The notes under the pieces are model-generated. The model ran no database searches. It saw only the letters and a program-made list of their open reading frames with translations, and was not told the DNA's origin. From assembly GCF_025787225.1 (NCBI RefSeq), contig NZ_CP090958.1:372001-436000 (forward strand): 64,000 nt of DNA, given 5' to 3'. Shown piece after piece: positions 11,872-50,160 of this stretch. Position 1 is the first letter of the stretch; every line of letters begins with the position of its first letter. The position numbers were made by a program, and so were the translations under genes. Source of the DNA: Saxibacter everestensis. GTDB lineage: Bacteria > Actinomycetota > Actinomycetes > Actinomycetales > Brevibacteriaceae.

Positions 11872-13311
11872 TCAGTGCCCGGACGTGACTTCTGCTTCCT
11901 TCACGACCTCGCCGTGCTTTCCCTTGTTGAGGCGCTGCACGATCAGCCCGATTGCGACGACGACGACAGCGAGAATAGCCGTGGCGTACAGTTCGAGCTT
12001 CAGATCTGAACCGATGGCCATGTAGATCAGCACCACCGGAATGAAGATGATCACGAGCCAGGTCAGTACCGGGAATGCCCACATCTTGATCGGCATTTCG
12101 GTTCCGGCCGCCTCTGTCTTGGCACGCAGCCGTAGCTGTGAAACGGCGATCACGAGGTATACCAGCAGAGCGACGGCGCCCGATGTCGCCAGCAGCGTGC
12201 TGAACACTGCCTCCGGTGCCAGGAAGTTGAATCCGACCGCGATGAAGCCGACCACTGTCGAGAGCAGCACCGCATTCGTAGGCACGCCATTCTTCGACAC
12301 CTTGGCTATGGACTTCGGCGCATCGCCTCGCTGTGCCAGCGAGAACATCATCCGGGACGCGGTGTACAAGGCCGAGTTCAGGCAGGAGGCGACGGCGACC
12401 AGGATCACGATATCGATAATGATCTTGGCGTTCGGGATGCCGATCGCGTCGAGTGCCGACTGGAACGAGCCATTCGCGGCGAGCACCTCGGAATTCCAGG
12501 GCACCAGCGAGACCACGAGGAAGATCGAGGCTACGTAGAACAGGCTGATCCGCCAGATGACCGAGTTCGTCGCCTTGCGGATCTCCTTTGCCGGGTTGGC
12601 CGACTCGGCGGCGGCAATGGTGACGATCTCGGTTCCCATGAAAGTGAACATCGTGGTCAGCAAGGCAGCAGGAACGGCTCCGAATCCATTCGGAAAGAAG
12701 CCACCGTCGCTAACCAGGTGCTCGGCACCGCTGACGTTGGATCCCGGCAGCAGGCCGAGGACGGCCAGGCCGGCGATGACGATGAATCCGATGATTGCGA
12801 CGACCTTCAACAGGGCGAACCAGAACTCGAACTCGCCGTAGTTGCCGACGCTTACCAGGTTGGTGATGGTCAGGATCAGGGTGATGCCCAACGCCCATAT
12901 CCAGGTTGCGACAGCGGGAATCCAGCTGTTGAGGATGATTGCCGCTGCGACGGCTTCGAGTGGGATGACCAGGACCCAGAACCACCAGTACAGCCAGCCG
13001 ATGCTGAAGCCGGCCCAGCGACCGATGCTGCGATCCGCGTATGTGGAGAATGACCCGGAGTCCGGATTCGCTGCGGCCATCTCGCCGAGCATCCGCATCA
13101 CGAGGACCACCAGCAGCCCGGCCGTCAGGTAGGCGATCAGAACTGCCGGTCCGGCGAGGGCGATTGCCTTGGACGAGCCGACGAAAAGTCCGGCCCCGAT
13201 TACGCCAGCGATCGAAATCATCGTGACATGCCGGGACTTCAGGCCTGTTCCGAGGGTGCCGGATGTGCCTTGTTTCGTTTCACCTTTGGGGGGCGACGAA
13301 TCGATTGCCAT
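11872..13311 (-). CDS. gabP: Amino acid permease of the APC family, probable GABA permease
   Basis: This 479-residue transporter of the AAT/APC superfamily has about 12 membrane helices. The hallmark helix-1 substrate region ISIAGVIGAGLFVGSS is present, as is the MRMLGEMAAANPDSGSFSTYA consensus of amino acid permeases, and FTFMGTEIVTIAAAES lies in helix 6. The ATG at 13311 is preceded by AGGAC; an ATG 8 codons upstream has no ribosome-binding site. It lies 68 bp downstream of a PucR regulator and next to gabT. Together these point to uptake of 4-aminobutyrate for catabolism. The substrate is inferred from context; other permeases of this class carry aromatic or basic amino acids. Confidence 0.8.
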   Translation of the reverse strand: MAIDSSPPKGETKQGTSGTLGTGLKSRHVTMISIAGVIGAGLFVGSSKAIALAGPAVLIAYLTAGLLVVLVMRMLGEMAAANPDSGSFSTYADRSIGRWAGFSIGWLYWWFWVLVIPLEAVAAAIILNSWIPAVATWIWALGITLILTITNLVSVGNYGEFEFWFALLKVVAIIGFIVIAGLAVLGLLPGSNVSGAEHLVSDGGFFPNGFGAVPAALLTTMFTFMGTEIVTIAAAESANPAKEIRKATNSVIWRISLFYVASIFLVVSLVPWNSEVLAANGSFQSALDAIGIPNAKIIIDIVILVAVASCLNSALYTASRMMFSLAQRGDAPKSIAKVSKNGVPTNAVLLSTVVGFIAVGFNFLAPEAVFSTLLATSGAVALLVYLVIAVSQLRLRAKTEAAGTEMPIKMWAFPVLTWLVIIFIPVVLIYMAIGSDLKLELYATAILAVVVVAIGLIVQRLNKGKHGEVVKEAEVTSGH

Positions 13312-13379
13312 ATTTGTCCTGTTTCTAATCTGCATGGAGGAACGCCGGTAGCCGTTCGCTGTCTAGCCGAGAAGAAAAC

Positions 13380-14987
13380 TTACGCCAGTTTGTGGCCCAC
13401 GTCATCTTGTGCCTTCAACACCCGGTATGCCCACCACAGCTCGAACCGGGCGTCGGGGTCGTCAAATGAAGCGTCGAGCAGCTCGGCGATCTGCCGAATC
13501 CGGTATCGGACGGTGTGCCGATGCACGCCCAGTTCGGTGGCGGCGCCATCCCAGGCTCCCGAGTGGTTGAGCCAGCAGCCGAGGGTTGTCAGCAGGTCGG
13601 TGTTGTGCTGTGCGTCGTATCCGATCACCGGCGCGAGCCTTTCTTCCGCCAGCAGCCGCAGACCGGGAAGTCTGGTAAGCACCTGCATGCCGTCTGCGGT
13701 GAGGTCGCCGAACCAGCGGATTCCGGTGCCGCCGCTGGCATCGACCGCCGTACGGGCTTCGGAGACGGCCTGGCCGATATCGGCCCAGTTGTGCCGCGCG
13801 CTGACGCCGAGGCTGACTTCAGCAGTGCGGGCGCTGAAGTCAGCAAGTTCGGCTGCCTCATTCGCCCGGCAGACGATTACCAGCTCTGAGTTCGCCAAGG
13901 CATGGAAGAATCCGGATCCGGCCAGCTCTATCCCTTTCTGGGCCGGTTTCTGCTCCGCAGATTGGATGAGCCGATCCTGACGGATGTGGAGCAATGTCGC
14001 TTCTGCCCTCTGTGCCAGGGCCTCTTCGACGGCCTCCAGCTGCGCGGCGGATCCGCGGACGAGGAGTGCCGTCACGGGGGATCGGGGCAGCGGCGTGCCC
14101 AGCGCGCGAACCGTCTGCCGGACGGATTCCAGCTGGCCGTTCAGTAATTGCGCCAGTAGCGCCGAGCGCAGCGAAGCTCGTGCTGCCGTGAGTTCGGTGT
14201 CCTGTCGTAGCGAGATGGCGGTCAGTGCGACGGCGCTGGCCAGCAGGGTGTTCACCGACGAGGTGACCGAGGTGTTTCCACCGAGCAACAGCACGCCCTG
14301 TACCTGACGGCCAGCGCCGAGTGCGTGCATGACAACTGTCCGATCCGGTGCGGTGACGCTGGCCGTCCCACGGGGTGGTCCCGCGAGCAGACGCCGGATG
14401 TCGGCGTCGAAGTCCGCGATCAGTTCATTGCCGCCGATCCTGGATCCGGCGCTGTGCAGCGGGGCGCCATCCATCCCGCAATGCACGACCCATCGTCCGG
14501 TGGCCTTTGCGAGCTGGTCGATCACCGCGGGGATGCCGCCACCCAACGAGGCGGCGCGGGAGAGAGCGCGCTGCGAATTGAGCAGCCACAATTCCTCTTC
14601 GCGCTGTTCGGCTGCGATCGCTTCGGCGACTGTCCTTACTATGGCGATGAATGGCGTTGGCTTCGGCACGGCCAGCAGAGTCAGTCCGCTCGCCATGCAG
14701 GCGTCGGCGAGGGCAGCCGGCACCTTCCGGTGGCCCAGACCGACGCCGAATGCCAGGCCCGCCACTCTCGCGGCTACGAGGCGGCGCACGTAGGTCCGGC
14801 AGGCTTTGGGGGTCAGCTCGCGGGAACGACCGAGCGTGAGTATCAGCTCGCCACCATTGAGATAGGGCTTCGGATCGTCGAGTTCGGTGGCGTGCGCCCA
14901 GGTGATTTCGGCGTCAAGGTCTCCCTCGACGATGACCTGGAGGTCGAGATCCTGGTCGTCGGTGAGGGAACGCAGGGAAATCGCCAT
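13380..14987 (-). CDS. PucR-family transcriptional regulator of GABA genes
   Basis: This 535-residue regulator has the N-terminal PucR sensory domain (residues about 5-125, with GGELILTLGRS and AGLAFGVGLGHRKVP). A central GGDEF-like/CdaR region follows. The C-terminal helix-turn-helix of the PucR class (HTH_30) lies at about residues 475-530, with TLGCWLNHSGAWDGAATELG followed by HRHTVRYRIRQI. It is divergent from gabT (102 bp apart) and followed by the permease gene. PucR-type activators such as GabR of Corynebacterium switch on gab genes in response to GABA. That role here is inferred from position. Confidence 0.85.
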   Translation of the reverse strand: MAISLRSLTDDQDLDLQVIVEGDLDAEITWAHATELDDPKPYLNGGELILTLGRSRELTPKACRTYVRRLVAARVAGLAFGVGLGHRKVPAALADACMASGLTLLAVPKPTPFIAIVRTVAEAIAAEQREEELWLLNSQRALSRAASLGGGIPAVIDQLAKATGRWVVHCGMDGAPLHSAGSRIGGNELIADFDADIRRLLAGPPRGTASVTAPDRTVVMHALGAGRQVQGVLLLGGNTSVTSSVNTLLASAVALTAISLRQDTELTAARASLRSALLAQLLNGQLESVRQTVRALGTPLPRSPVTALLVRGSAAQLEAVEEALAQRAEATLLHIRQDRLIQSAEQKPAQKGIELAGSGFFHALANSELVIVCRANEAAELADFSARTAEVSLGVSARHNWADIGQAVSEARTAVDASGGTGIRWFGDLTADGMQVLTRLPGLRLLAEERLAPVIGYDAQHNTDLLTTLGCWLNHSGAWDGAATELGVHRHTVRYRIRQIAELLDASFDDPDARFELWWAYRVLKAQDDVGHKLA

Positions 14988-15089
14988 CCCACCATCATCC
15001 CATTACTACGCCAAAATGAACTATTCAGTCCGCTACTTCTGCCGAAACGTACAAAGACACCGAAGCGGTCGCGGGCGTAATCTCGCCTT

Positions 15090-16469
15090 ATGACTTCCAC
15101 GCATGAAGATGCCGCGGTTCCAGGCGGCCCGGCGCTCACCCAGGAGCGCAAACTGGTTACGGAAATCCCCGGCCCACGCTCGGTCGAATTGCAGGCCCGC
15201 AAGTCGGCCGCAGTTGCCGCAGGTGTCAGCCAGACACTGCCTGTGTACATCACGGCAGCGGGCGGCGGAATCCTGCGCGATGTCGACGGCAATCAGCTGA
15301 TCGACTTCGGTGCCGGCATTGCCGTCGTCAACGTTGGTAACTCCGCACCCGAAGTTGTTTCCCGGGTACAGGACCAGGTTGCGCGATTTACCCACACCTG
15401 TTTCATGGTCACGCCGTACGAGGGATACATCGAGGTTGCCGAGGCGATCAATCGGCTGACTCCCGGCGACCATGCCAAGAAGACCGCACTCTTCAACTCC
15501 GGTGCCGAGGCAGTCGAGAATGCGGTGAAGATCGCGCGTCATGCCACCGGCCGAGACGCCGTTGTCGTATTCGATCACGCCTACCATGGCCGTACGAACC
15601 TGACCATGGCAATGACCGCGAAGAACATGCCGTACAAGGATGGCTTCGGTCCCTTCGCCGGCGAAATCTACCGCGCTCCGATGTCGTACCCCCTGCGCGA
15701 CAATGACGCGGCCGGCACCAAGCTCTCCGGCGCTGACGCCGCGAAGCGTGCCATCTCGATGATCGAAAAGCAGGTCGGGGCCAAGAACCTCGCCGCAATC
15801 GTGATTGAACCGATCCAGGGCGAGGGCGGCTTCATCGTTCCCGCTCCCGGATTCCTGCCGACCCTGGTCGAGTGGGCGAAGGAAAACGGAGTGGTCTTTG
15901 TCGCCGACGAGGTCCAGACCGGCTTCGCCCGCACCGGACAGCTGTTCGCCTGTGAAGACGAGAACATCGTTCCCGACCTGATGACTGTGGCCAAGGGAAT
16001 CGCCGGCGGCCTGCCGCTGGCAGCGGTGACCGGCCGCGCCGAAATCATGGACGCCGTGCACGGCGGCGGCCTGGGCGGAACCTACGGCGGCAACCCGGTC
16101 GCCTGCGCCGCGGCTCTTGGCGTGATCGCGACGATCGAAAAGGAAGACCTGATCGGCAAGGCCGCGCACATCGGCGAGCTGATGACCGAGCGGCTGACCA
16201 CGATGAAGGGGAAGTTCCCGGTCATCGGCGACCTGCGTGGACGCGGCGCAATGATCGCCATCGAGATCACCAAGCCGGGAACCATCGAGCCAGATGCTGC
16301 GACCACAGCTGCGGTGGCCAAGGCCGCGCACGCTGCCGGTCTGCTGGTGCTGGTCACCGGAACGTACGGAAACGTGCTGCGCTTCCTGCCGCCGCTGGTT
16401 ATCTCGGACGACCTGCTTAACGAGGGCCTGGACATCCTGGACGAGGCGTTCGCCGCCATCGTCGAATAG
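15090..16469 (+). CDS. gabT: 4-aminobutyrate aminotransferase
   Basis: This 459-residue fold-type-I PLP enzyme of class III moves the amino group of GABA to 2-oxoglutarate, giving succinate semialdehyde. Visible features include NSGAEAVENAVKIAR for phosphate binding, the cofactor Asp273 in ADEVQTG and the Schiff-base lysine Lys302 in TVAKGIAGG. The GGTYGGNPVACAAA motif is also present. Length fits the actinobacterial GabT group. No ribosome-binding site precedes the ATG, but TAATCT lies 7 bp upstream, suggesting a leaderless transcript. No succinate-semialdehyde dehydrogenase gene (gabD) is adjacent; it must be elsewhere if the pathway is complete. A strong hairpin follows. Confidence 0.93.
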   Translation: MTSTHEDAAVPGGPALTQERKLVTEIPGPRSVELQARKSAAVAAGVSQTLPVYITAAGGGILRDVDGNQLIDFGAGIAVVNVGNSAPEVVSRVQDQVARFTHTCFMVTPYEGYIEVAEAINRLTPGDHAKKTALFNSGAEAVENAVKIARHATGRDAVVVFDHAYHGRTNLTMAMTAKNMPYKDGFGPFAGEIYRAPMSYPLRDNDAAGTKLSGADAAKRAISMIEKQVGAKNLAAIVIEPIQGEGGFIVPAPGFLPTLVEWAKENGVVFVADEVQTGFARTGQLFACEDENIVPDLMTVAKGIAGGLPLAAVTGRAEIMDAVHGGGLGGTYGGNPVACAAALGVIATIEKEDLIGKAAHIGELMTERLTTMKGKFPVIGDLRGRGAMIAIEITKPGTIEPDAATTAAVAKAAHAAGLLVLVTGTYGNVLRFLPPLVISDDLLNEGLDILDEAFAAIVE

Positions 16470-33486: not shown

Positions 33487-34980
33487 TTAGACCAGCGCCG
33501 GATCCTTCTTACTGGGCTTGACCTTGCGGAAGATCGCAGGGCCGATTGCGAGTGCAAGGGCGAAGATCAGAATTCCGACCGCGATCGGACTCTGCAGCAC
33601 GATGCCGAAGCTGCCCTGTCCAAGCGCCGACGTCTGAACCAGCGACTTCTCAAACAGCGGCCCAAGTACGAGCCCAAGCACGAGCGGAGCGATCGGCAGG
33701 TCGAGCTCCTTCATGATGTAGCCGACCACCCCGAAGATCAGCACGAGCCAGACGCTGAACATGTTGTTGTTGACCGAGTATGCGCCGACGAAGCTGGTCA
33801 GCAGGATGATCGGATACAGGTAGGCGTACGGGATCCGGAGCATCTGTGCGAACACCGGAGCCATCGGCAGGTTCAGCACGATCAGCATGGCGTTCCCGAT
33901 AAAGAACGAGACCAGCAGGCCCCAGACCAGCTCGGGCTGGTTCTCGAAGAGCAACGGACCCGGTTGGATGCCGTAAATGGTGAACGCTCCCAACAGGACG
34001 GCGGTCGTTCCACCACCCGGGATGCCGAGCGCCAAGGTCGGAACGAAGTTTGCGTTTGCGGCCGCGTTGTTCGCGCTTTCCGGCGCCGCGACTCCCTCGA
34101 TAGCTCCCTTGCCGAATTCATCGCGGTTCGGCGAAAAACGCTTCTCGATGCCGTACGACATAAACGAGGCGAGCGTCGAGCCTGCGCCCGGAAGACAGCC
34201 GAGCAGGAAGCCGATGAAGGTGCCTCGGATGATTGGCGCCCCGCTTCGCTTGAGGTCATTCCTGCTGATCACCATGTCGCGGAACTTGGCCCGAATCGGC
34301 GCGGCCGCGCCCACCCTGATCTGGTAGAAGACCTCTCCCAGGGCGAATAGGCCTATCATCACCTCGACGAACGGAATTCCGCCAAGCATATTGACATTGC
34401 CGAAGGTGAACCGTGCCTGCCCGGAGGCAATTGCGACGCCGACCGTGGCGATGAGCAGACCGGCCGCGGCCATCATCAGACCCTTGTTGAGCGAGCCACC
34501 CGAGAAACTCACCACGGTTATCAGGCCGAGAATCATGATGGCAAGATTCTCGACCGGGCCGAAGTTCAGCGCCAGCTTCGCGAACGGGGGAGCGAGCGCC
34601 ATCAACAGCGCAAGCGAGATGATGGCGGCGACGAACGAGCCGATCGCCGCAATAGCCAGCGCGGCACCGGCTCGGCCCTTTCTGGCCATTTGATAGCCGT
34701 CAAGGGTTGTGACGACGCTGGCCGCTTCGCCGGGGGTCGATATCAGCACCGAGGTGATGGTGCCACCATATTGGGCGCCGTAGTAGATGCCGGCGAGCAT
34801 GATGAGCGCCGTCACCGGTTCCATCGCCAGGGTGAGCGGAATCAGGATTGCGACGCCGGTGGTCGATCCGAGGCCAGGCATCAGCCCGATGATTGTCCCC
34901 ATCAGCACACCGATGAAACACCAGAGCAGATTCTCAGGGGTCAGGGCCGTTTGAAAGCCCAGCATTAAGTTTTCCAGCAC
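33487..34980 (-). CDS. tctA: Tripartite tricarboxylate transporter, large permease TctA
   Basis: This 497-residue permease with about 11-12 helices has the TctA signatures GLMPGLGSTTGVAILIPLT and YYGAQYGGTITSVLISTPGE in the first half. The mirror motif LGCLPGAGSTLASFMSYGIE and the segment LGIPGGGTTAVLLGAF lie in the second half. With TctB and the binding protein TctC it imports di- or tricarboxylates or similar acids using an ion gradient. The GTG at 34980 follows AGGAGT, 8 bp after the tctB stop. It is the last gene of the gntR-pdxA-like-tctCBA operon. Confidence 0.93.
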   Translation of the reverse strand: MLENLMLGFQTALTPENLLWCFIGVLMGTIIGLMPGLGSTTGVAILIPLTLAMEPVTALIMLAGIYYGAQYGGTITSVLISTPGEAASVVTTLDGYQMARKGRAGAALAIAAIGSFVAAIISLALLMALAPPFAKLALNFGPVENLAIMILGLITVVSFSGGSLNKGLMMAAAGLLIATVGVAIASGQARFTFGNVNMLGGIPFVEVMIGLFALGEVFYQIRVGAAAPIRAKFRDMVISRNDLKRSGAPIIRGTFIGFLLGCLPGAGSTLASFMSYGIEKRFSPNRDEFGKGAIEGVAAPESANNAAANANFVPTLALGIPGGGTTAVLLGAFTIYGIQPGPLLFENQPELVWGLLVSFFIGNAMLIVLNLPMAPVFAQMLRIPYAYLYPIILLTSFVGAYSVNNNMFSVWLVLIFGVVGYIMKELDLPIAPLVLGLVLGPLFEKSLVQTSALGQGSFGIVLQSPIAVGILIFALALAIGPAIFRKVKPSKKDPALV

Positions 34981-34988
34981 AGTGACTC

Positions 34989-35663
34989 CTAGAATCCGAA
35001 GATGCCTTGCGGCAGCGGAACCCGCAACAGGATGACGAAGATTCCGTAGATAGCGGCCAGCGCCACGACGGTGACGATGATGGACGTAAGCAACTTCTGC
35101 CGTTCAACCAGGAACGAAATGCCGAAGAGCATCAGCGCGAACGACACGATAAAGCCGAGAAGCGGAACCAGCAGAACGGTGATCACCGTCGCGCCGACCA
35201 CGATCAGCAGGATCTGATTTCGCCTGCGCTGGGACCGGCCGAAGATGTCCACCTCGCCGATGCCGGTGCTGGCCTCCTGTTCAGCCGGTTCGGTTGCCCC
35301 GCCAGCCGCCGGACCTGCAGTGCCCTCGGAGGTTGCGGCCGCAGCACTCCCAACCGCCGGTTCGGTTGCCCGCCCGGCCGCCGCTGTGCGTGCGGCGGCC
35401 GGTGCCAGAGCGGCATCGGTCGGCAGGCCAAGCCGTTCCGCGGCCAGCTCTTCGAGCGTGCCCCCTCCACCTCGCCACGTGGTGACGAGGTCGAGGGCGG
35501 CGAACACGGTCATCAGGCTACCGGCGAAGACGGGCAGGAACCCGGCGCCGATCTGGCCGTTATCAGCGAAGATTCCGTAGCCGACCCCGGCGATGACGGC
35601 GGCCACGCCGATGGCAATAACAACAATATTTGCGGTGATTGTGCCGACTACGATCTTCGACAT
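34989..35663 (-). CDS. tctB: Tripartite tricarboxylate transporter, small subunit TctB
   Basis: This 224-residue membrane protein has four helices: two near the N-terminus (VVIAIGVAAVIAGVGYGIF, LPVFAGSLMTVFAALDLV) and two after residue 150 (LLIVVGATVITVLLVPLLGF, given in part, and the last near the end). Between them lies an unusually long Ala/Gly/Pro/Thr-rich cytoplasmic linker of about 70 residues. Most TctB proteins are 140-170 residues. The linker arose at least partly by an in-frame 72-bp duplication (25 of 28 bases match between 35284-35311 and 35356-35383). It is 2 bp from tctC. Confidence 0.85.
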   Translation of the reverse strand: MSKIVVGTITANIVVIAIGVAAVIAGVGYGIFADNGQIGAGFLPVFAGSLMTVFAALDLVTTWRGGGGTLEELAAERLGLPTDAALAPAAARTAAAGRATEPAVGSAAAATSEGTAGPAAGGATEPAEQEASTGIGEVDIFGRSQRRRNQILLIVVGATVITVLLVPLLGFIVSFALMLFGISFLVERQKLLTSIIVTVVALAAIYGIFVILLRVPLPQGIFGF

Positions 35664-35665
35664 GA

Positions 35666-36649
35666 TTACTTACCCAGTACCGTCTTGAGATCTTCGTTGT
35701 TGGACTTCAAGTACGCGGCGAAGTCATCACCGTATGACACGTTCGGCTGCATCATGTTGTCCTCGATGTACTTCGTGTAGGCATCCGAGTCGGCGAACTT
35801 CTTGGCAGCGTCGATCCAGTACTGCTTCGCCTCGTCGCTTATCCCGCCTGGGGCGATCACGCCGCGGAACTGGGCGAATGACACATCGATTCCCTGCTCC
35901 TTGGCAGTTGGAATATCTTTCAGCGAATCGTACTTGTACCGCTCTTCTGCTGCGGCGCACAGCGGCTTGACCGTGCCTGCCTCGAGCTGGCCGGTGATCT
36001 CACCTGGGTTCACCGAGATGACGTCGACCTTGCCTCCGAGCAGGCCAGTCGTCGCTTCGCTGCCGGACTCGAAGGGCACTCGGTCAAACTTCGCGCCAGC
36101 CTTCTCTTCCATCAGGGTGAAGACGATGTTGTCCAGGCCGGTCGCCCCGGAGATCGCCGCGACCACTCGTTCATTCTTGGAGGCGTTCACCAGGTCGCTG
36201 CAGGTCTTGTATGGCGAATCCTCTTTCACCACGAGAAGGGTGTAATCGTCGCCGAGCTTCATGATCGGGGTGAAGCTGGTGTAGTCGAACTCCACTTTCT
36301 GGGTGAGCGGCAGAGCCAGTAGCGCCGTTTCGGAAGCCAACAGGTACTCGGCGTTGCCGTTCTGGGCCAGGAAGTTCGAGTAGCCGACCGCGCCGGAACC
36401 ACCCTCCTGGTTCTCTACCGAAATGTTGACGCCGCTGGCTTCTTCAAGTCCGGCCGCCGTGGCCCGGCCTGCGATGTCGCTGCCGCCTCCGGCCGCGAAC
36501 GGGACGATCATCTTGACGTCGCCCTCCGGTTGGAACTCCTCGCCGCCGGAGGCTGAATTCTCGGAGTTCATACCGCAGGCCGACAAGGCCAGTGTGCTGA
36601 TCGCCGCGATTGCGACGGCACCTGCAAGGCGGGTTCGCATTTTCGACAT
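35666..36649 (-). CDS. tctC: Tripartite tricarboxylate transporter substrate-binding lipoprotein TctC
   Basis: This 327-residue extracellular binding protein has a lipoprotein signal with the lipobox LALSAC. It has the Bug/TctC opening strand VKMIVPFAAGGGSDIAGR. The ligand-contact regions are the GSGAVGYSNFL loop and SGATGLDNIVF. These proteins bind carboxylates through water-bridged contacts, and the sequence does not reveal which acid. The ATG at 36649 follows AAAGGAG. It lies between the PdxA-like gene (26 bp) and tctB (2 bp), tying transport to the dehydrogenase. Confidence 0.92.
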   Translation of the reverse strand: MSKMRTRLAGAVAIAAISTLALSACGMNSENSASGGEEFQPEGDVKMIVPFAAGGGSDIAGRATAAGLEEASGVNISVENQEGGSGAVGYSNFLAQNGNAEYLLASETALLALPLTQKVEFDYTSFTPIMKLGDDYTLLVVKEDSPYKTCSDLVNASKNERVVAAISGATGLDNIVFTLMEEKAGAKFDRVPFESGSEATTGLLGGKVDVISVNPGEITGQLEAGTVKPLCAAAEERYKYDSLKDIPTAKEQGIDVSFAQFRGVIAPGGISDEAKQYWIDAAKKFADSDAYTKYIEDNMMQPNVSYGDDFAAYLKSNNEDLKTVLGK

Positions 36650-36675: not shown

Positions 36676-37686
36676 CTAGACGGATTGGTTGGTTTTGCCT
36701 TCGCGGACAGCTTTTCTGGTAGCGATAGTTGCGGCGAGCCTGAACGCGTTAAGGGTTGCGCCCAGACCAGCCTTGTTCTGGCCGACGATGTCGAAAGCCG
36801 TTCCATGCGCGGGGGTGGCAATGGGAATCGGAAGCCCGCCCTGCACGGTGACGCCCTGGTCGAATCCCATCATCTTCATGGCGATCTGCCCCTGGTCGTG
36901 ATACATCGTCACGACGCCATCGAACTGACCCGCGCGGGCGCGCAGGAAGATCGTGTCCGACGGGAAGGGCCCACTGGCATCGATCCGGTTAGCGCGGGCG
37001 GCCGCGACGCCGGGAGCGATTTCGTCGATTTCCTGCCGCCCGAAACTTCCGTTCTCTCCGGCATGAGGGTTGAGCGCCGCGACGCCGATCCGCGGGGAGT
37101 CAAGTCCGGAATCCTTGAGCGCTGTCGCAAACATCTCAACGGTTGCTGTGACGTTTTCCGCGGTGATGCGCTGCGGAACGTCGGCCAGTGCGATGTGCGA
37201 CGTCACCCTGGCGGTCCAGAGATCGGACAGGATGTTGAATTCCGAGGTGCGGCCGCCGAAGTGAAGCGTATCGGCGAACCATCGGAGTTCATCTTCCGTG
37301 TTCATTCCGGCAAGATGCAGCGATGACTTGTTCAGCGGCGTGAAGCAGATAGCGTCCACCTCGCCGTCCTCGACGAGCCGCAGGGCGTAGCGCAGGCCAT
37401 CGAGCGCCCAGGCGCCGGCCGCTGCGCTGACTACTCCGAGTTCGGTTGGCAGTGGGCCAGATCGTGGCGGAGGCATCAGCACCGGTCGTCCCGAGCCCGG
37501 CTCGTCGGCAATGTCGAGGCTGACCTGGGCGTGGTCGGCGGCCCGGTCCAGTTCTTCCCGGCTGGCTAGTACCAGCACGTCGGCGAGGTCGCCGAGGTCC
37601 GGCTGGCTGAGCAGCTTCGCACCGAGCTCGGGGCCAACCCCGGCAGGATCGCCGAAGGTGAGTGCGATGCGGGGGCGGTAGGTCAC
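36676..37686 (-). CDS. PdxA-family dehydrogenase, probably catabolic
   Basis: This 336-residue NAD-dependent oxidative decarboxylase belongs to the PdxA family (4-hydroxythreonine-4-phosphate dehydrogenase). The N-terminus has LTFGDPAGVGPEL. The divalent-metal ligands are all present: His164 in TSHIAL, His208 in NPHAGE and His263 in MYHDQGQIAMK. Their spacing (44 and 55) is close to that of E. coli PdxA. The GTG at 37686 follows AGGGAGA. Position between a GntR regulator and TctCBA argues against vitamin B6 synthesis and for oxidation of an imported hydroxy acid. PdxA2-type and TphB-type relatives do this in sugar-acid and terephthalate pathways, but their usual partners (DUF1537 kinase, dioxygenase) are absent here. 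Confidence 0.82.
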   Translation of the reverse strand: MTYRPRIALTFGDPAGVGPELGAKLLSQPDLGDLADVLVLASREELDRAADHAQVSLDIADEPGSGRPVLMPPPRSGPLPTELGVVSAAAGAWALDGLRYALRLVEDGEVDAICFTPLNKSSLHLAGMNTEDELRWFADTLHFGGRTSEFNILSDLWTARVTSHIALADVPQRITAENVTATVEMFATALKDSGLDSPRIGVAALNPHAGENGSFGRQEIDEIAPGVAAARANRIDASGPFPSDTIFLRARAGQFDGVVTMYHDQGQIAMKMMGFDQGVTVQGGLPIPIATPAHGTAFDIVGQNKAGLGATLNAFRLAATIATRKAVREGKTNQSV

Positions 37687-37711: not shown

Positions 37712-38452
37712 TTAGGCATGGCGCAGTCGCTCCAGCCAGGCGGTGGATTCGGGTGTTGCGCCGTCAAGCTGGTCGACGACATCGACCAGGAATGTCTGGT
37801 GGCCGTGTGCTTCCAACTCGTCGATCGCGTCATCCAGGGTTCCGGTCTCAATTACGCGGAGCATGCGGCGATGACGGTCCAGGTTGCCGTGCAGGTCTTC
37901 GATGCCCCGGCGGGCCTTGTTGTTCATCGCCATGCACAGCTGCAGCTGCATCGCCATCGACCGGTAGGTGTCTTCCAGGCGCCGATGCCCGGCCAGGCCG
38001 ACGACAGCGATGTGAAACTCGAAGCCGGCCCGGGTCATCGCGGCCTCGTTGCCGAACTCTGCGACTTCCTCCATCCGGGCGATCGCTCGATGACAACGGG
38101 CCAGTCTTTCCGGTGCCAGCTTCGGGAACGCCAGCCGCATCGCCATCGGCTCCAGATCGTTTCGCAGCGTGACAATCTCGTACACATCGTGCTGGGTGAG
38201 CGGAGTAACTATCGCACCGCGCCGGGGAATCTGGACCACGAGTCCGCTGTGTTCCAGCACCTTGAGTGCTTCTCTGAGAGGCGGGCGGGAAATGCCAAGC
38301 TGGTCGCAGAGTCGTTCCTCCACGAGACGCTCGCCAGGCAGGAAGTCGCCGGACAGGATGGCGTCCGTGAGGTTCCTGGTTGCCAGTTCGGCGAGGCTGG
38401 GCGGGGCGGCGATCTTACCCGGCACTCCTGCCGTGACAGTAACTGAGTCCAT
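37712..38452 (-). CDS. GntR-family (FCD) transcriptional regulator
   Basis: This 246-residue regulator has an N-terminal winged helix at about residues 20-85, with LTDAILSGDFLPGERLVEE in part, LGISRPPLREALKVLEHSG and the wing RRGAIVTPL. It also has a C-terminal FCD ligand domain with LRNDLEPMAMRLA, FEFHIAVVGLAGH and HRRMLRVIETG, which hold the typical metal-binding histidines. FCD regulators sense carboxylic acids. The ATG at 38452 follows AGAGGA. It heads the leftward operon and is divergent from the CoA-transferase gene. Two palindromes in between are probable operators. Confidence 0.9.
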   Translation of the reverse strand: MDSVTVTAGVPGKIAAPPSLAELATRNLTDAILSGDFLPGERLVEERLCDQLGISRPPLREALKVLEHSGLVVQIPRRGAIVTPLTQHDVYEIVTLRNDLEPMAMRLAFPKLAPERLARCHRAIARMEEVAEFGNEAAMTRAGFEFHIAVVGLAGHRRLEDTYRSMAMQLQLCMAMNNKARRGIEDLHGNLDRHRRMLRVIETGTLDDAIDELEAHGHQTFLVDVVDQLDGATPESTAWLERLRHA

Positions 38453-38479: not shown

Positions 38480-38530
38480 CGGATCGGTTAGTACTTGACC
38501 GATCCGGTGGGTGTGGGTCTATTGTATACA
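38480..38530. promoter_or_regulatory. Two palindromic operators between gntR and the CoA-transferase gene
   Basis: A perfect 9-bp inverted repeat, CGGATCGGT (38480-38488) and ACCGATCCG (38498-38506), is followed by TTGTATACAGT with the perfect 8-bp core TGTATACA (38523-38530). The latter resembles operators of FCD-type GntR proteins. Both lie in the 140-bp divergent promoter region. The strong ribosome-binding site of the CoA-transferase gene (AGGAGG at 38581) lies downstream. Confidence 0.6.
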
Positions 38531-38592
38531 GTATTCGGTTGAAATGTAACCCAGATCACATTTCAGCGCAAGCACCTATCAGGAGGTTTTCG

Positions 38593-39795
38593 ATGGCAGG
38601 CTCCCCGCACGCCCCGCTCGAGGGCGTTACGGTGATCGAGGTCGGCGTATTCATGGCCGGCCCGTTCGCCACGATGCAACTGGCCGATCTTGGCGCACGG
38701 GTGATAAAGGTCGAGTCGCCGGTCACGGGAGAGCAAACCCGGGCAACCGGACCGTTCATCGATGGCGAGAGCTCCCCATTCATCCGACTCAACCGGAACA
38801 AGGAATCGCTTGCCCTGGACCTCAAGTCAGCCCAGGGGAAGGAAGCGCTGGTGCGTCTCGCGGCCACCGCAGATGTCATCGTCGAGAACCTTCGCCCAGG
38901 GGCAATGCGCCGACTCGGGCTCGGATACGACGATCTTCGGGAAGCCAACCCGGGCCTGATCTACGCCTCGGCGTCCGGATGGGGGCAGGATGGTCCGCTG
39001 TCGCACTTGCCCGGTCTTGACATCATGGCCCAGGCACGCAGCGGCCTGATGAGCATCACTGGCTATCCCGATATGCCGCCGGCAAAGGTCGGAGTACCGA
39101 TCTGCGACTTGACCACCGCGCTCTATGTCTCGCTGGCGATCACTGCCGCGCTGCATGAGCGGCATTCTTCCGGCACCGGCCAGTTCATCGACGTTTCGCT
39201 GATGGAGTCCGGTGTCTCGTTCGGCGTATGGGAGGCCGGCGCCTACTTTGCCGAGGGTACGGTCGGCGGACCGAACGGTTCCGCGCATCAGAACCAGGCG
39301 CCGTACCAGGCGGTGCGGAGCAAGGACGGGTACGTCACGATCGGGGCCAATACGCCCCGGAACTGGCAGGCCTTCTGCGCAGCGCTCACCCTGGATGAGC
39401 TGCTCGAGGACCCGCGATACGCCGGTGCGTATGACCGGCTGCAGAATCGGGAGCCGTTGATCGAGGCGATCGAGCGGCGCACGGGCGAGCTCACCACTGC
39501 CGAGGTTGTCGACATCCTTAATCAGGCGGGCGTTCCCTGCGCACCTATTTCCGACTTCGGCGAGGTGTTCAACGACGAACACCTCGCCGCGCGCGAGTTC
39601 TTCTGGGATGCCGAGCATCCCGCCATCGGCCCGGTCCGGCAGATCGGATCCCCGATGCGGTTTTCCAGGACGCCGGCGGTCCGGCGGAATGCCGGCCCGG
39701 TGCTTGCCTCGGGCAACAGGGAGATCCTCGAGTCGCTTGGCTACCAGGGCGACGAGCTGGAGGCCCTCTGTCCCGAGGCCGGGAGCACGCCATGA
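38593..39795 (+). CDS. CaiB/BaiF (family III) CoA-transferase
   Basis: This 400-residue enzyme transfers CoA between carboxylic acids without free CoA. The family start LEGVTVIEVGVFMAGPFATM, LADLGARVIKVESP and the RPGAMRRLGLGYDDL region are clear. The catalytic aspartate is Asp143 in LPGLDIMAQA, and AGVPCAPISDFGEVF is near the end. The ATG at 38593 has a perfect AGGAGG. The start of the next gene overlaps its stop (ATGA). Divergence from gntR-pdxA-like-tctCBA suggests that it activates the imported acid or a derivative to its CoA thioester. Confidence 0.92.
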   Translation: MAGSPHAPLEGVTVIEVGVFMAGPFATMQLADLGARVIKVESPVTGEQTRATGPFIDGESSPFIRLNRNKESLALDLKSAQGKEALVRLAATADVIVENLRPGAMRRLGLGYDDLREANPGLIYASASGWGQDGPLSHLPGLDIMAQARSGLMSITGYPDMPPAKVGVPICDLTTALYVSLAITAALHERHSSGTGQFIDVSLMESGVSFGVWEAGAYFAEGTVGGPNGSAHQNQAPYQAVRSKDGYVTIGANTPRNWQAFCAALTLDELLEDPRYAGAYDRLQNREPLIEAIERRTGELTTAEVVDILNQAGVPCAPISDFGEVFNDEHLAAREFFWDAEHPAIGPVRQIGSPMRFSRTPAVRRNAGPVLASGNREILESLGYQGDELEALCPEAGSTP

Positions 39796-40556
39796 CCGAT
39801 CAGCTATTGGTCGAGCAGAAGTCCGACGCCCTCTATGTCACTTTCAACCGGGCGGCACAACGCAACGCGATGTCCTGGGAGATGTACCAGGGTCTGCAGG
39901 CTGCTTGCGAGCGGGCCGATGCCGAAGACTCGGTGCGCGTCATGGTGCTTCGCGGCGCCGGCGGTACCGCCTTCGTCGCCGGGACCGATATCGCCCAGTT
40001 CAAGGGCTTCACCGGGCAGGACGGCATTGAGTACGAGCAGCGGATCAGCGCAATTCTCGGGCGGCTGGCCGCTGTGCGGGTCCCGGTGATTGCCGCGATC
40101 GAGGGGTTCTGCATCGGCGGCGGCCTTGGGATCGCGGCGGTCGCGGACCTGCGGATTGCCGACCGGGGGGCGAAGTTCGGGGTGCCGATAGCTCGCACCC
40201 TTGGTAACTGCCTCTCGGCGAGCACGCTATCCGTTCTGGTCAGCCTGGTCGGGCGGGCCCGTGCGACGGACCTGCTGATGACGGCCCGGCTGATGTCGGC
40301 TGATGAGGCACTCGCCTCCGGGTTCGTCACGACGGTGAGCGACGATGTGGATGCCGAGGTCGAGGCGCTGGTGCGGCGACTCGGCAGTAGCGCGCCGTTG
40401 ACGCTATGGGCAACGAAAGAGGCGATGCGCCGGATTTATGCAGGCTCGACGGTGGACGACGAGGACATCGTATCGCTGGTCTACGGCAGCGAGGATTTCG
40501 CGAACGCGGTCACGGCCTTCACCAGCAAACGGAAGCCGGTCTGGCAAGGGCGCTAG
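39792..40556 (+). CDS. Enoyl-CoA hydratase/isomerase family protein without the usual glutamates
   Basis: This 254-residue crotonase-fold protein has the oxyanion-hole segments AFVAGTDIAQF (first CoA-thioester contact) and GFCIGGGLGIAAVADLRIA. The two catalytic glutamates of classical enoyl-CoA hydratases are replaced. The first position (GGGxE) reads GGGLG, and the second (PExxLG) reads VPIARTLGNCLS. This substitution pattern belongs to a subgroup often annotated as hydratase but unlikely to hydrate by the standard mechanism. An isomerase, decarboxylase, hydrolase or C-C lyase role is possible. It is translationally coupled to the CoA-transferase. Confidence 0.85.
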   Translation: MTDQLLVEQKSDALYVTFNRAAQRNAMSWEMYQGLQAACERADAEDSVRVMVLRGAGGTAFVAGTDIAQFKGFTGQDGIEYEQRISAILGRLAAVRVPVIAAIEGFCIGGGLGIAAVADLRIADRGAKFGVPIARTLGNCLSASTLSVLVSLVGRARATDLLMTARLMSADEALASGFVTTVSDDVDAEVEALVRRLGSSAPLTLWATKEAMRRIYAGSTVDDEDIVSLVYGSEDFANAVTAFTSKRKPVWQGR

Positions 40557-47889: not shown

Positions 47890-50160
47890 CTACGCCGCGG
47901 CTTGGGCCTTCTTCTTCGCTGCCGCGGTAGCCTGCGACCGCACGGTGGCCTTGACCTTGTTTGTCAGCTTCGACCTCGCTTTTGCGGTGGCTTCCGACTT
48001 GGCTTTCTTGCTGATGGACCGGGCGCTGGCCGCCGTCGCATCCCTGACCGCATGTTTTTCCCCGGCCTTGCGGGACGCGGAAGCCGCCGAGTCGCGCGCA
48101 TTTGTCCGGGCTATTGATACAGCCGCCGACTTTGCTTCGGTTGTCGCAGCACTTCTGGCTTGGGTTGTCGCGGCGTCCCTGGCCGCCTGTTTCGCTGCCT
48201 GCTTCGTCGCGGCGATCGCCGAGCGGGTCACCGTCACAGTCCTCGAGGCGCTCTTGGTGGTGGTGGCCGATTTCTGTTCCCTAGCCGAGGCGCTGTGCTT
48301 CTTGCCCTCGATCGTGTGCGTTCTGGTTGCCGAGGCCGTTGCCTTTGCGGTGTGGCCGCTATAACGGTATCTGGCCGTATAGCTGTACTTCGCGGTGCCG
48401 GTGTAGCGCGCCTTCGCGGACCTCGTCACCTTGACCGCGGCCTTCTCGGTGACGGTCGCGCTCTGGCTGACCGTCTGCCGCACCGTGACGGTAGCTACCT
48501 GCTGACTAGAGGAGCCCGCACCGGATGTGATCAGCCGCCCCAGATTGAGGATGCCGGTCCCGCAGCTGCTCGTAGTGCAGGTCCAATCGGCTTCCTTATG
48601 CTTCGGAAAAGCGCTGATCGATGACTTCAGCGCCGACTCGACTGCGTCTGGCCCGGCGCCCGGCGCCAGCGAGTAGAGCAGAGCGGCCGCGCCGGCGACG
48701 GCCGGGGCCGCCATCGATGTGCCCTCCATCTGGCCGTAACCTGCCTGTTGCGGCACGGTCGTTCCGGTGTTCACCGCGGACCAGATGCCGTTGTAGTTGT
48801 TGTCACCACCCGGCGCACTGACATCGATGCCCGTGCCGTAGTTGGAGTACCAGGCCCGTTCGCCGATCTCATCGGTGGATCCGACGGTGATCACGCCGGA
48901 ACAGTTGGCTGGGGCCGAGTTTCTGACATTCACCGACTCGTTGCCGGCGGCTACCACGACAGTGCTGCCGAGTGATCGCGCCTTGTCGATGGCGTCCTGA
49001 TACGACCTGGGGCATCCCTCAGTCGAGTATCCGCCAAGGGACAGGTTGATCACCTGTGCCGGATGAGTGTTTTGCGGAACATCGGGCACTGAGCCGCCGG
49101 CAGCCCAGACTATGCCCGCCGTGATGTCGGAGTCGTAGCCGCCACAGACGCCAAGCGCCCGCACCGGAAGCAGGCTTACCCCAGGGGCGACTCCAGTGAT
49201 TCCCTCGCCGTTATCGGCCTGTGCGGCGACAATGCCGGCCACGTGCGTACCGTGCCACGAACTGTCGCTTCGTTCGCAGTCTTCCCCCTTGAATGTCCCG
49301 CCTGGCCACCAGTCACCGGGATCTTCAGCGTCATCGTCTCGCGAACCGGCTTCCTCAGTTGCCGGCACGTCGCGGGCCACCTCGGGGTCGTCGCGGGCCA
49401 CTTCGGGGTCGGAGACCAGGTCGTAGCCGGGAAGTACCTGGTGGTCAAGATCGGGATGGTTGGTGATTCCGGTGTCGATAACGGCCACGACGACAGACGA
49501 GCTGCCCTTGGTCTTGTTCCAGAGCTCCGGGGCGTGCACGCTGTAACCGCCAACCGGCAGTTTCACCTTGCCGCTGTTGACGGAGACGACGGAGTCCCGG
49601 TCGTCCCAGACGTTGTACTGCTTGCCGTAGAACGGATCATTCGAGCCGATGGGCGGCTGGGCGGCAATTTCCCGGCGATAATCCGGCTCGGCCCAGACCA
49701 CATCGGCTCGTTCGGCTAGCTGCTCGGCAATCTTCTCGGCGGCCGCTGCCGGCAGTTCGTCGTCGAACCTGAGCACCGTTGTCTTCTCACTCACCGGTGT
49801 GGCCGACTCAATGGTCGAATCCGTCAGGGCCTCGGACTTCCGCAGCAGCGCAGGCGATGGCGTCGTCGTGGTCGTCTTGACAATCAAGCCGTTGGCATAC
49901 TTCGGGGCGGCAGGTGGCGGGGCATGTCCCGGCCCGGTTGGATCGGTCTCGGCCCGTGCAATGCCGGCCATTTCGGCTCGCGCAGTGTCCGGCGCTGACG
50001 CCGCTTGCGCCGGGCCAACCGCCGACGCTTGCGCCGGGCCAACCGCCGACGCTTGCGCCGGGCCAACCGCCACAGCCATCGCCAGCAGGATCGCCGGGCC
50101 TATTGCCGCGATGATACGAATCCGCCTGGAAAACAGGCCGGGGGAGGTAAGGGAAGACAT
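47890..50160 (-). CDS. Secreted S8 subtilisin-like serine protease with basic C-terminal tail
   Basis: This 756-residue protein has a Sec signal peptide (IIAAIGPAILLAMAVAVG), followed by three tandem copies of an octapeptide like VGPAQASA encoded by exact 24-bp DNA repeats. An inhibitor_I9-like propeptide comes next (ADVVWAEPDYR). The peptidase domain has catalytic Asp229 in VIDTGI, His303 in WHGTHVAG and Ser482 in GTSMAAP. From about residue 545 to the end the sequence is low-complexity, rich in Ala, Ser, Thr, Lys and Arg (KATASATRTHT, KQAAKQAARDAA), with no cell-wall sorting signal or transmembrane helix. Unlike mycosins it lacks a C-terminal membrane anchor. Likely exported and wall-associated through charge. 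Confidence 0.88.
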   Translation of the reverse strand: MSSLTSPGLFSRRIRIIAAIGPAILLAMAVAVGPAQASAVGPAQASAVGPAQAASAPDTARAEMAGIARAETDPTGPGHAPPPAAPKYANGLIVKTTTTTPSPALLRKSEALTDSTIESATPVSEKTTVLRFDDELPAAAAEKIAEQLAERADVVWAEPDYRREIAAQPPIGSNDPFYGKQYNVWDDRDSVVSVNSGKVKLPVGGYSVHAPELWNKTKGSSSVVVAVIDTGITNHPDLDHQVLPGYDLVSDPEVARDDPEVARDVPATEEAGSRDDDAEDPGDWWPGGTFKGEDCERSDSSWHGTHVAGIVAAQADNGEGITGVAPGVSLLPVRALGVCGGYDSDITAGIVWAAGGSVPDVPQNTHPAQVINLSLGGYSTEGCPRSYQDAIDKARSLGSTVVVAAGNESVNVRNSAPANCSGVITVGSTDEIGERAWYSNYGTGIDVSAPGGDNNYNGIWSAVNTGTTVPQQAGYGQMEGTSMAAPAVAGAAALLYSLAPGAGPDAVESALKSSISAFPKHKEADWTCTTSSCGTGILNLGRLITSGAGSSSQQVATVTVRQTVSQSATVTEKAAVKVTRSAKARYTGTAKYSYTARYRYSGHTAKATASATRTHTIEGKKHSASAREQKSATTTKSASRTVTVTRSAIAATKQAAKQAARDAATTQARSAATTEAKSAAVSIARTNARDSAASASRKAGEKHAVRDATAASARSISKKAKSEATAKARSKLTNKVKATVRSQATAAAKKKAQAAA

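Follow-up and report, generated by a model that had tools for sequence, protein, structure and literature searches.

What reaction does a crotonase-fold protein catalyze once both glutamates of enoyl-coenzyme A (CoA) hydratase are gone? The question is raised by a gene at 39792..40556 (plus strand) in a 64,000-nucleotide stretch of the Saxibacter everestensis genome, hereafter the window. From ATG to stop, it encodes a 254-residue crotonase-fold protein of the PRK06144 subfamily. The protein matched PF00378 (Pfam ECH_1) with 127.9 bits against a cut-off of 27, which places it in the crotonase superfamily. It also matched NF004796 of NCBIfam (PRK06144, "enoyl-CoA hydratase") over its full length, with 333.2 bits against a cut-off of 272, and is therefore a member of that family. 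Its AlphaFold2 model, built from an input alignment of 35 sequences, reached a predicted local distance difference test (pLDDT) score of 94.6 and a predicted template modeling (pTM) score of 0.92. Structure comparison with solved crotonases gave Z scores up to 33.6.

Judged from sequence and alignments, the oxyanion-hole segments FxAGxD and GGG are kept. FVAGTDI spans residues 61–67 (39972..39992, plus strand) and GGG spans residues 109–111 (40116..40124, plus strand). The first glutamate motif reads GGGLG, with L112-G113 where hydratases carry xE. The second runs F129-G-V-P-I-A-R-T-L-G-N, where hydratases carry FGxPExxLG. Gly113 (codon 40128..40130, plus strand) and Ile133 (codon 40188..40190, plus strand) occupy the positions that we take to be Glu144 and Glu164, respectively, in rat hydratase numbering. 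The pair of catalytic glutamates that characterizes enoyl-CoA hydratase (EC 4.2.1.17) is absent from the protein. The sequence-only reading, an earlier model-made annotation of this DNA, had claimed this loss and intact oxyanion-hole segments. Both observations stand, and the loss recurs in relatives. That reading also described an altered second motif; the missing glutamate was correct, but one extra residue, T136, had been overlooked. It lies in Arg135-Thr136-Leu-Gly-Asn139 (40194..40208, plus strand), which alignments show to carry a one-residue insertion. Sequencing error or a decayed gene was ruled out as the cause of the missing glutamates, as the motif recurs in at least 75 of 80 matches chosen without regard to it. 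Given the loss of both glutamates, the retained oxyanion-hole segments, and the coupling of the gene to a CoA-transferase, standard enoyl-CoA hydration is unlikely, as had been proposed. The window crotonase probably is not an enoyl-CoA hydratase and acts on a small polar acyl-CoA.

The missing glutamates were dropped as the surprise of this locus. To describe the comparisons, we use L-numbers as labels of individual crotonase loci from other genomes, whether family, sister, or control. A set of 64 distinct non-family crotonases from nine genomes was scored by regular expression; 25 carried both glutamates, 6 only the first, 4 only the second, and 29 neither. Four of these 29 were corrected by eye, with L216 being unaligned and L212, L218, and L226 carrying the second glutamate after another residue. 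This left about 25 of 63 paralogs (about 40%) without either glutamate, and the notion that the loss signals rarity did not survive. At the level of sequence, absence of both glutamates is common in the crotonase superfamily, and the distinctive thing is the PRK06144-type family.

The signature of this family was read from two sets. The unselected set held the best 80 matches in named genomes plus the window, 81 rows chosen regardless of motif. In these rows, residue 133 was I in 75, V in 2, A in 2, and S in 1 (the four commonest letters), T136 and N139 were each present in 76, and the Glu82 column held E in 76 and D in 2. The larger set of 123 family sequences (window included, not dereplicated) combined unselected matches, plasmid loci, and relatives' loci kept by the motif FGVPIA[RK]TLGN. 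[RK]135, T136, and N139 are fixed by this motif, and residue 133 is limited to I, V, A, or F; the counts of I in 118 and V in 5 at that residue are therefore uninformative, and no E occurs in the Glu164 column because the motif itself excludes it. L150 carries the insertion (PAVRTLGN) yet fails the motif expression and was counted as non-family. The columns of Glu82, Tyr81, Trp251, and the Glu144 position are independent of the selecting motif. The Glu144 column held A in 71, G in 30, S in 9, and others, and never E. Y81 and E82 were each conserved in 122 of 123 sequences and W251 in 121, and the T65 column was T or S in 120. Among 36 non-family crotonases, the T65 column was A in 23, T136 was a gap in 35, residue 139 was mostly L or V, the W251 position was F in 27, and E occurred at 82 in 4. 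In a maximum-likelihood tree, all 60 family rows lay on one side of a branch separating them from 15 others, with support of 100/99. Sequence comparison indicates a crotonase family that is coherent and widespread and has both an active-site signature of its own and recurrent gene partners.

Members were found in Actinomycetota, Alpha-, Beta-, and Gammaproteobacteria, Chloroflexota, and Dormibacterota, with at least 20 loci in Polynucleobacter and relatives. Matches at E values of 1e-45 or lower turned up in 15 of 396 genomes sampled from the window's phylum; among close relatives of the window genome, 20 of 59 had a match. The window's own genome is included in both counts. Annotated records of these crotonases are labeled enoyl-CoA hydratase. 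No assay of the PRK06144 family was found in the literature searched, where most subscription papers were outside reach; the identifier PRK06144 gave no match among 5.39 million papers, and no title or abstract among the search results concerned a PRK06144-type crotonase family.

Glu82 (codon 40035..40037, plus strand) is the likely acid/base in PRK06144-type crotonases and the candidate replacement for the lost glutamates, with a presumed contact to the substrate. In the window model, it sits on a predicted helix spanning residues 75–94, one helical turn from position 86. In 4-chlorobenzoyl-CoA dehalogenase and rat hydratase, we take the counterparts of position 86 to be His90 and Leu117, respectively. 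An acidic residue (D or E) is found at position 86 in 86 of 123 family sequences, and the window crotonase has Ser. According to the sequence-only reading, glutamates supplied from neighboring positions would speak against its claim. Another form of such supply is conceivable with Glu82, which may reach the substrate.

Known crotonases frame these differences. The fold and the oxyanion-hole segments are common to the window protein and enoyl-CoA hydratase (rat 1dub, Z 30.5; Mycobacterium tuberculosis 3h81, Z 31.2), whereas the window protein has Gly and Ile in place of the glutamates and a one-residue insertion. Its Glu82, Asn139, Tyr231, and Trp251 are positions where other crotonases mostly carry different residues. 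The nearest solved relatives, 4k2n and 4wcz, are 33–34% identical and titled putative or generic hydratases. The aligned 4wcz sequence also lacks both glutamates, like the window protein, but unlike it neither 4k2n nor 4wcz has the PIA[RK]TLGN insertion. Methylmalonyl-CoA decarboxylase (YgfG) and feruloyl-CoA hydratase/lyase are crotonase-fold enzymes that break C–C bonds without the full hydratase pair, each keeping one glutamate. The window protein is no match to the former, scoring 108.8 against a cut-off of 257 for NF008506. 4-Chlorobenzoyl-CoA dehalogenase (1nzy) aligned to the window model with Z 29.7. The position of its catalytic His90 is presumably Ser in the window protein, and Ser142 presumably lies near the position of its catalytic Asp145.

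The crotonase gene stands in a cluster of two divergent units. Directly upstream lies a family III CoA-transferase of the CaiB/BaiF type (38593..39795, plus strand; 400 residues with the chosen start; PF02515, 428.9 bits), whose TGA overlaps the crotonase ATG as ATGA. On the minus strand are a GntR/FCD regulator (37712..38425; PF00392 and PF07729; start uncertain, 38458 or 38425), a PdxA-like nicotinamide adenine dinucleotide-dependent dehydrogenase (36676..37686; PF04166; TIGR00557 247.9 bits, below the cut-off of 290), the solute-binding protein TctC (35666..36649; PF03401, with Bug/TctC structures as matches), the small permease TctB (34989..35663; PF07331), and the large permease TctA (33487..34980; PF01970, 540.7 bits). 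PDB relatives of the PdxA-like protein include D-threonate 4-phosphate dehydrogenase and terephthalate dihydrodiol dehydrogenase. The best NCBIfam models for the CoA-transferase were mesaconate, glutarate, and oxalate CoA-transferases, and every one scored below its cut-off, so a substrate assignment from the CoA-transferase was dropped. An assignment from the importers was also dropped, as both the window TctC and the tripartite ATP-independent periplasmic (TRAP) receptors of L078 and L092 resemble many solved receptors whose ligands vary or are not stated.

The divergent promoter region between GntR and CaiB contains an operator-like site, ATTGTATACAGTAT (38521..38534, plus strand), which had no match in 100 shuffles of the window. 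The motif TTGTATACAR stands in the GntR–CaiB gap of the window and of seven related loci (L013/L168, L159, L164, L165, L166, L167, and L169), and no exact match was found in L011, L012, L160, L161, and L162. It was present anywhere in 19 of 246 loci scanned, several being one place sampled twice. In the window's close relatives, both divergent units may form one regulon.

Gene neighbors were then compared across genomes. Of the 122 family loci other than the window, 95 were flanked by 6 kb or more on each side, and removing sequences at least 85% identical brought these down to 59; short family loci such as L019 and L023 were left out of the 59. The controls were 60 loci of other crotonases, hand-picked from nine genomes (the window's own and eight holding family members), a few of them short. 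Within 9 kb of the crotonase, CaiB was found at 47 of 59 family loci versus 5 of 60 controls. Together with the ATGA overlap, this bears out the coupling to a CoA-transferase claimed earlier. A class V aminotransferase of the BhcA/serine-glyoxylate type was nearby at 18 family loci versus 1 control, and a fused flavin adenine dinucleotide (FAD)/Fe-S 2-hydroxyacid dehydrogenase at 16 versus 0. TctC, DctM, and a PdxA-like gene were nearby at 24, 11, and 5 family loci versus 3, 0, and 0 controls, respectively. Dld was found at 2 versus 0, with the label derived from one of those two loci. The aminotransferase and oxidoreductase labels were picked after L011–L090 had been seen, which makes their 59-versus-60 test partly circular. 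In a fairer test, 27 later loci were set against the 60 controls, giving 6 of 27 versus 1 for the aminotransferase (p 0.003) and 5 of 27 versus 0 for the oxidoreductase (p 0.002). The aminotransferase, a linked 2-hydroxyacid dehydrogenase, or both were present at 21 of 59 family loci. TtuC, HIBADH, DHAK, SSADH, MatC, GntP, and gamma-carbonic anhydrase were rejected as linked genes, none being significant across the 59 and 60 loci. On the tree, the gene-linkage label needs 7 to 10 changes and is spread over many subclades, which may reflect repeated gain or one gain with losses.

The best curated model of the aminotransferase was the L-aspartate-glyoxylate aminotransferase BhcA (440 bits, below the cut-off of 650), and its best PDB match was a serine-glyoxylate aminotransferase. 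The FAD/Fe-S protein matched YdiJ (D-2-hydroxyglutarate dehydrogenase) and GlcD models below their cut-offs, and also a glycolate oxidase structure. Dld of L176 was a curated equivalog match (793 bits against 391). These partners suggest that a 2-hydroxy acid is oxidized and the resulting 2-oxo acid aminated, glycolate to glyoxylate to glycine being the simplest case. The aminotransferase recalls the beta-hydroxyaspartate cycle (BhcA–BhcD), and sister locus L107 also has a BhcC-like aldolase, but both genes fall below cut-offs (440 against 650 and 370 against 690, respectively). A CoA-transferase and a crotonase are not known to be part of that cycle.

The window's same-family relatives, whose crotonases are 58–62% identical to the window's, occupy both cluster types. 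L013 and L164–L169 have the PdxA/TctABC type, and L161, L171, and L173–L175 have the aminotransferase/oxidoreductase type. Simple replacement between the two was considered and rejected. PdxA or TtuC and the aminotransferase share 0 of 59 clusters, a weak result with 6 such loci, and in L164, L167, and L169 the PdxA-type cluster has an FAD/Fe-S gene nearby as well, which speaks against simple replacement. Elsewhere, Caballeronia grimmiae has glcDEF, glcC, tartrate dehydrogenase, and the crotonase together. The tartrate dehydrogenase of this locus, L103, scored above its curated cut-off (557 against 470), and similar genes (51–95% identity; 53% in L147) were found in L027, L028, L031, L097, and L147. 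An Acidiphilium locus has GntR, CaiB, crotonase, symporter, and aminotransferase. L011 carries threonate-dehydrogenase-like and threonate-kinase-like genes, both below cut-offs.

From these partners, we propose a two-step CoA-dependent module for a small imported hydroxy-dicarboxylic acid that would release C2 units. Exactly as stated, this module is a tentative reading, one we hold a little short of even confidence. TctABC would import the acid, and the family III CoA-transferase would move CoA onto it. The crotonase oxyanion hole would then bind the thioester carbonyl, and the enolate would be formed by C–C bond breakage rather than by two-glutamate hydration. The likeliest form would be a retro-aldol cleavage of a malyl-CoA substituted at position 3, in which tartryl-CoA would yield glyoxylate and glycolyl-CoA. 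Glu82 would be the first candidate for the catalytic base or acid, with Thr136 and Asn139 next. The CoA-transferase would reuse glycolyl-CoA, freeing glycolate. In some relatives, though not in the window, gene linkage suggests a third step, in which an FAD/Fe-S or Dld-type 2-hydroxyacid dehydrogenase would convert glycolate to glyoxylate and a BhcA-like aminotransferase would aminate it. The window lineage has a PdxA-like beta-hydroxyacid dehydrogenase in the cluster and no aminotransferase, possibly a second exit for the same acid class. Tartrate dehydrogenase and PdxA-type enzymes oxidize beta-hydroxy acids with loss of CO2. Cleavage of tartryl-CoA to glyoxylate and glycolyl-CoA is favored because 3-substituted malyl-CoA cleavage, tartrate dehydrogenase, and PdxA would share an acid class. 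Tartrate would be the favored substrate and tartronate the main alternative, as far as gene content can suggest a substrate and a reaction; tartrate specifically is a doubtful call.

Several observations weigh against this C–C cleavage module. Neither the aminotransferase nor the linked 2-hydroxyacid dehydrogenase was found at 38 of 59 family loci, and no CaiB was nearby at 12 of 59. Neither partner occurs within the window. The window's genome has no close aminotransferase copy (best 26% identity). Among its full-length FAD/Fe-S genes, the nearest is 44% identical and located elsewhere, next to genes that by eye are aldehyde-dehydrogenase-like and other aminotransferase-like genes. TtuC was near 2 of 59 non-redundant family loci versus 1 of 60 controls, showing no enrichment, and HIBADH, DHAK, and SSADH were not significantly enriched either in that comparison. 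In Halomonas L099, a GlcD gene lies near the FAD/Fe-S gene, so the FAD/Fe-S protein there may oxidize a substrate other than glycolate. Dld is a D-lactate enzyme, and the Dld clusters (L172 and L176) could point to a lactate-type product. A malonyl-CoA-synthase-like ligase in CaiB's place in L039 fits a malonate-like acid and a decarboxylase. Retro-aldol chemistry requires a base, and Glu82 is placed at the substrate only presumptively. No assayed enzyme of the PRK06144-type family was found, and 4k2n, the closest match in the PDB, shares just 33–34% identity and has no insertion.

One alternative is a decarboxylase acting on a malonate-like acid, above all tartronate (hydroxymalonate). CaiB would form tartronyl-CoA, the crotonase would remove CO2 to give glycolyl-CoA, and glycolate would be freed by CoA transfer, like the oxalate/formate pair. 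Such an enzyme needs mainly the oxyanion hole, the part retained, and the glycolate/glyoxylate exit genes would be the same. The ligase of L039 (413 bits for PRK07514, cut-off 558) lies directly upstream of the crotonase, with no CaiB label. A MatC-type dicarboxylate carrier (PF07158) adjoins the L173 cluster, with similar genes in L161 and L171, but MatC and a MatB-like ligase are near only 2 and 1 of 59 family loci, respectively. A gamma-carbonic-anhydrase-like gene is near 7 of 59 versus 2 of 60 (p 0.095), and the L144 example is below its curated cut-off. The low NF008506 score given above also speaks against a decarboxylase, which moreover leaves the tartrate dehydrogenase and PdxA partners unexplained; we consider it unlikely. 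About equally unlikely, by a hair less so, is a hydratase or dehydratase with relocated catalysis, in which Glu82 and the acidic residue 86 of most relatives replace the glutamates on a dicarboxyl-CoA substrate. The conservation of Glu82 (122/123) and D/E86 (86/123) fits, position 86 presumably lying at the catalytic His90 of 4-chlorobenzoyl-CoA dehalogenase, and NCBIfam and annotated plasmid records use the name enoyl-CoA hydratase. Yet these names were assigned by transfer alone, the window protein has Ser at position 86, and a hydratase has no need for 2-hydroxyacid dehydrogenase and glyoxylate aminotransferase partners.

Two further explanations carry less weight. Crotonases without the glutamates include hydrolases and binding proteins of the EchA6 kind, so the window protein could be a thioester hydrolase or a non-catalytic crotonase-fold binding protein. 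The frequency of glutamate-less crotonases (about 25 of 63) is in line with this, but the polar, family-specific Glu82 and Tyr81 each persist in 122 of 123 sequences drawn from several phyla, and the CoA-transferase pairing is frequent (47/59), which makes it improbable. Slightly more improbable still is a beta-elimination that acts on a diacid CoA ester with an ether or thioether link and releases a 2-hydroxy acid; Variovorax paradoxus TBEA6 has been postulated to degrade 3,3'-thiodipropionate in this way. The TBEA6 cluster also combines a class III CoA-transferase and an FAD 2-hydroxy-acid dehydrogenase with genes of the crotonase family (PMC6370202), but the several crotonases and acyl-CoA dehydrogenases described there are not seen in the window cluster.

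Other loci showed further arrangements. L204 (1–19801), the sole control with the aminotransferase, has a sister crotonase together with GlcD-, GlcF-, TctC-, and TctA-like genes; in L107, another sister crotonase stands beside the aminotransferase, the FAD/Fe-S gene, a CoA-transferase, and the BhcC-like aldolase. These sister crotonases, outside the PRK06144-type family, read GGGCE/PAARVG (L204) and GGGLE/PIKNLG (L107); given them, the pathway link may be older than the family. In L164 (10372–16814), a threonate-dehydrogenase-like, TIM-like, RpiB-like, and dihydroxyacetone-kinase-like set adjoins the PdxA/TctABC/CaiB/crotonase cluster; the set looks like C4 sugar (erythrulose/threitol) catabolism, and a dihydroxyacetone-kinase-like gene is also in L013. 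Within the window's family, CaiB-crotonase in L172, L176, and L177 (about 12400–15600) is accompanied by a GntP permease and a D-lactate dehydrogenase. In the same phylum, a gamma-carbonic-anhydrase/CaiE-like gene and a second CoA-transferase come after the crotonase in L144 and L147 (8950–9530), an order that recalls the carnitine operon. L040, L045, L048, L050, and about 16 further loci of Polynucleobacter and relatives have TctC-crotonase divergent from CaiB, and no aminotransferase or FAD/Fe-S label was found in the sampled flanks of these roughly 20 loci. Apart from the cluster, the window encodes on the minus strand (47890–50160) a protein that by eye is subtilase-like, with a long, repetitive, Ala/Thr/Lys-rich C-terminal half.

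The farthest-reaching form of the proposal is a route, widespread and not yet described, that would lead from C4/C3 hydroxy-diacids to glycolate and glyoxylate. In it, a natural crotonase-type tartryl-CoA lyase, or a tartronyl-CoA decarboxylase, would act with a CoA-transferase that recycles glycolyl-CoA, by Glu82/Thr136/Asn139 chemistry not known in the superfamily. We regard this as possible and rather unlikely, marginally less doubtful than tartrate as the specific substrate. The chemistry of glycolyl-CoA and tartronyl-CoA draws interest because its matching carboxylase had to be engineered (PMC10729300). The module would be compact, consisting of one transferase, one crotonase, and one importer. 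If C–C cleavage of hydroxy-diacid CoA esters is indeed what these proteins do, the hydratase names of the family would be wrong, and a CoA-dependent path into glycolate and glyoxylate metabolism would have been overlooked.

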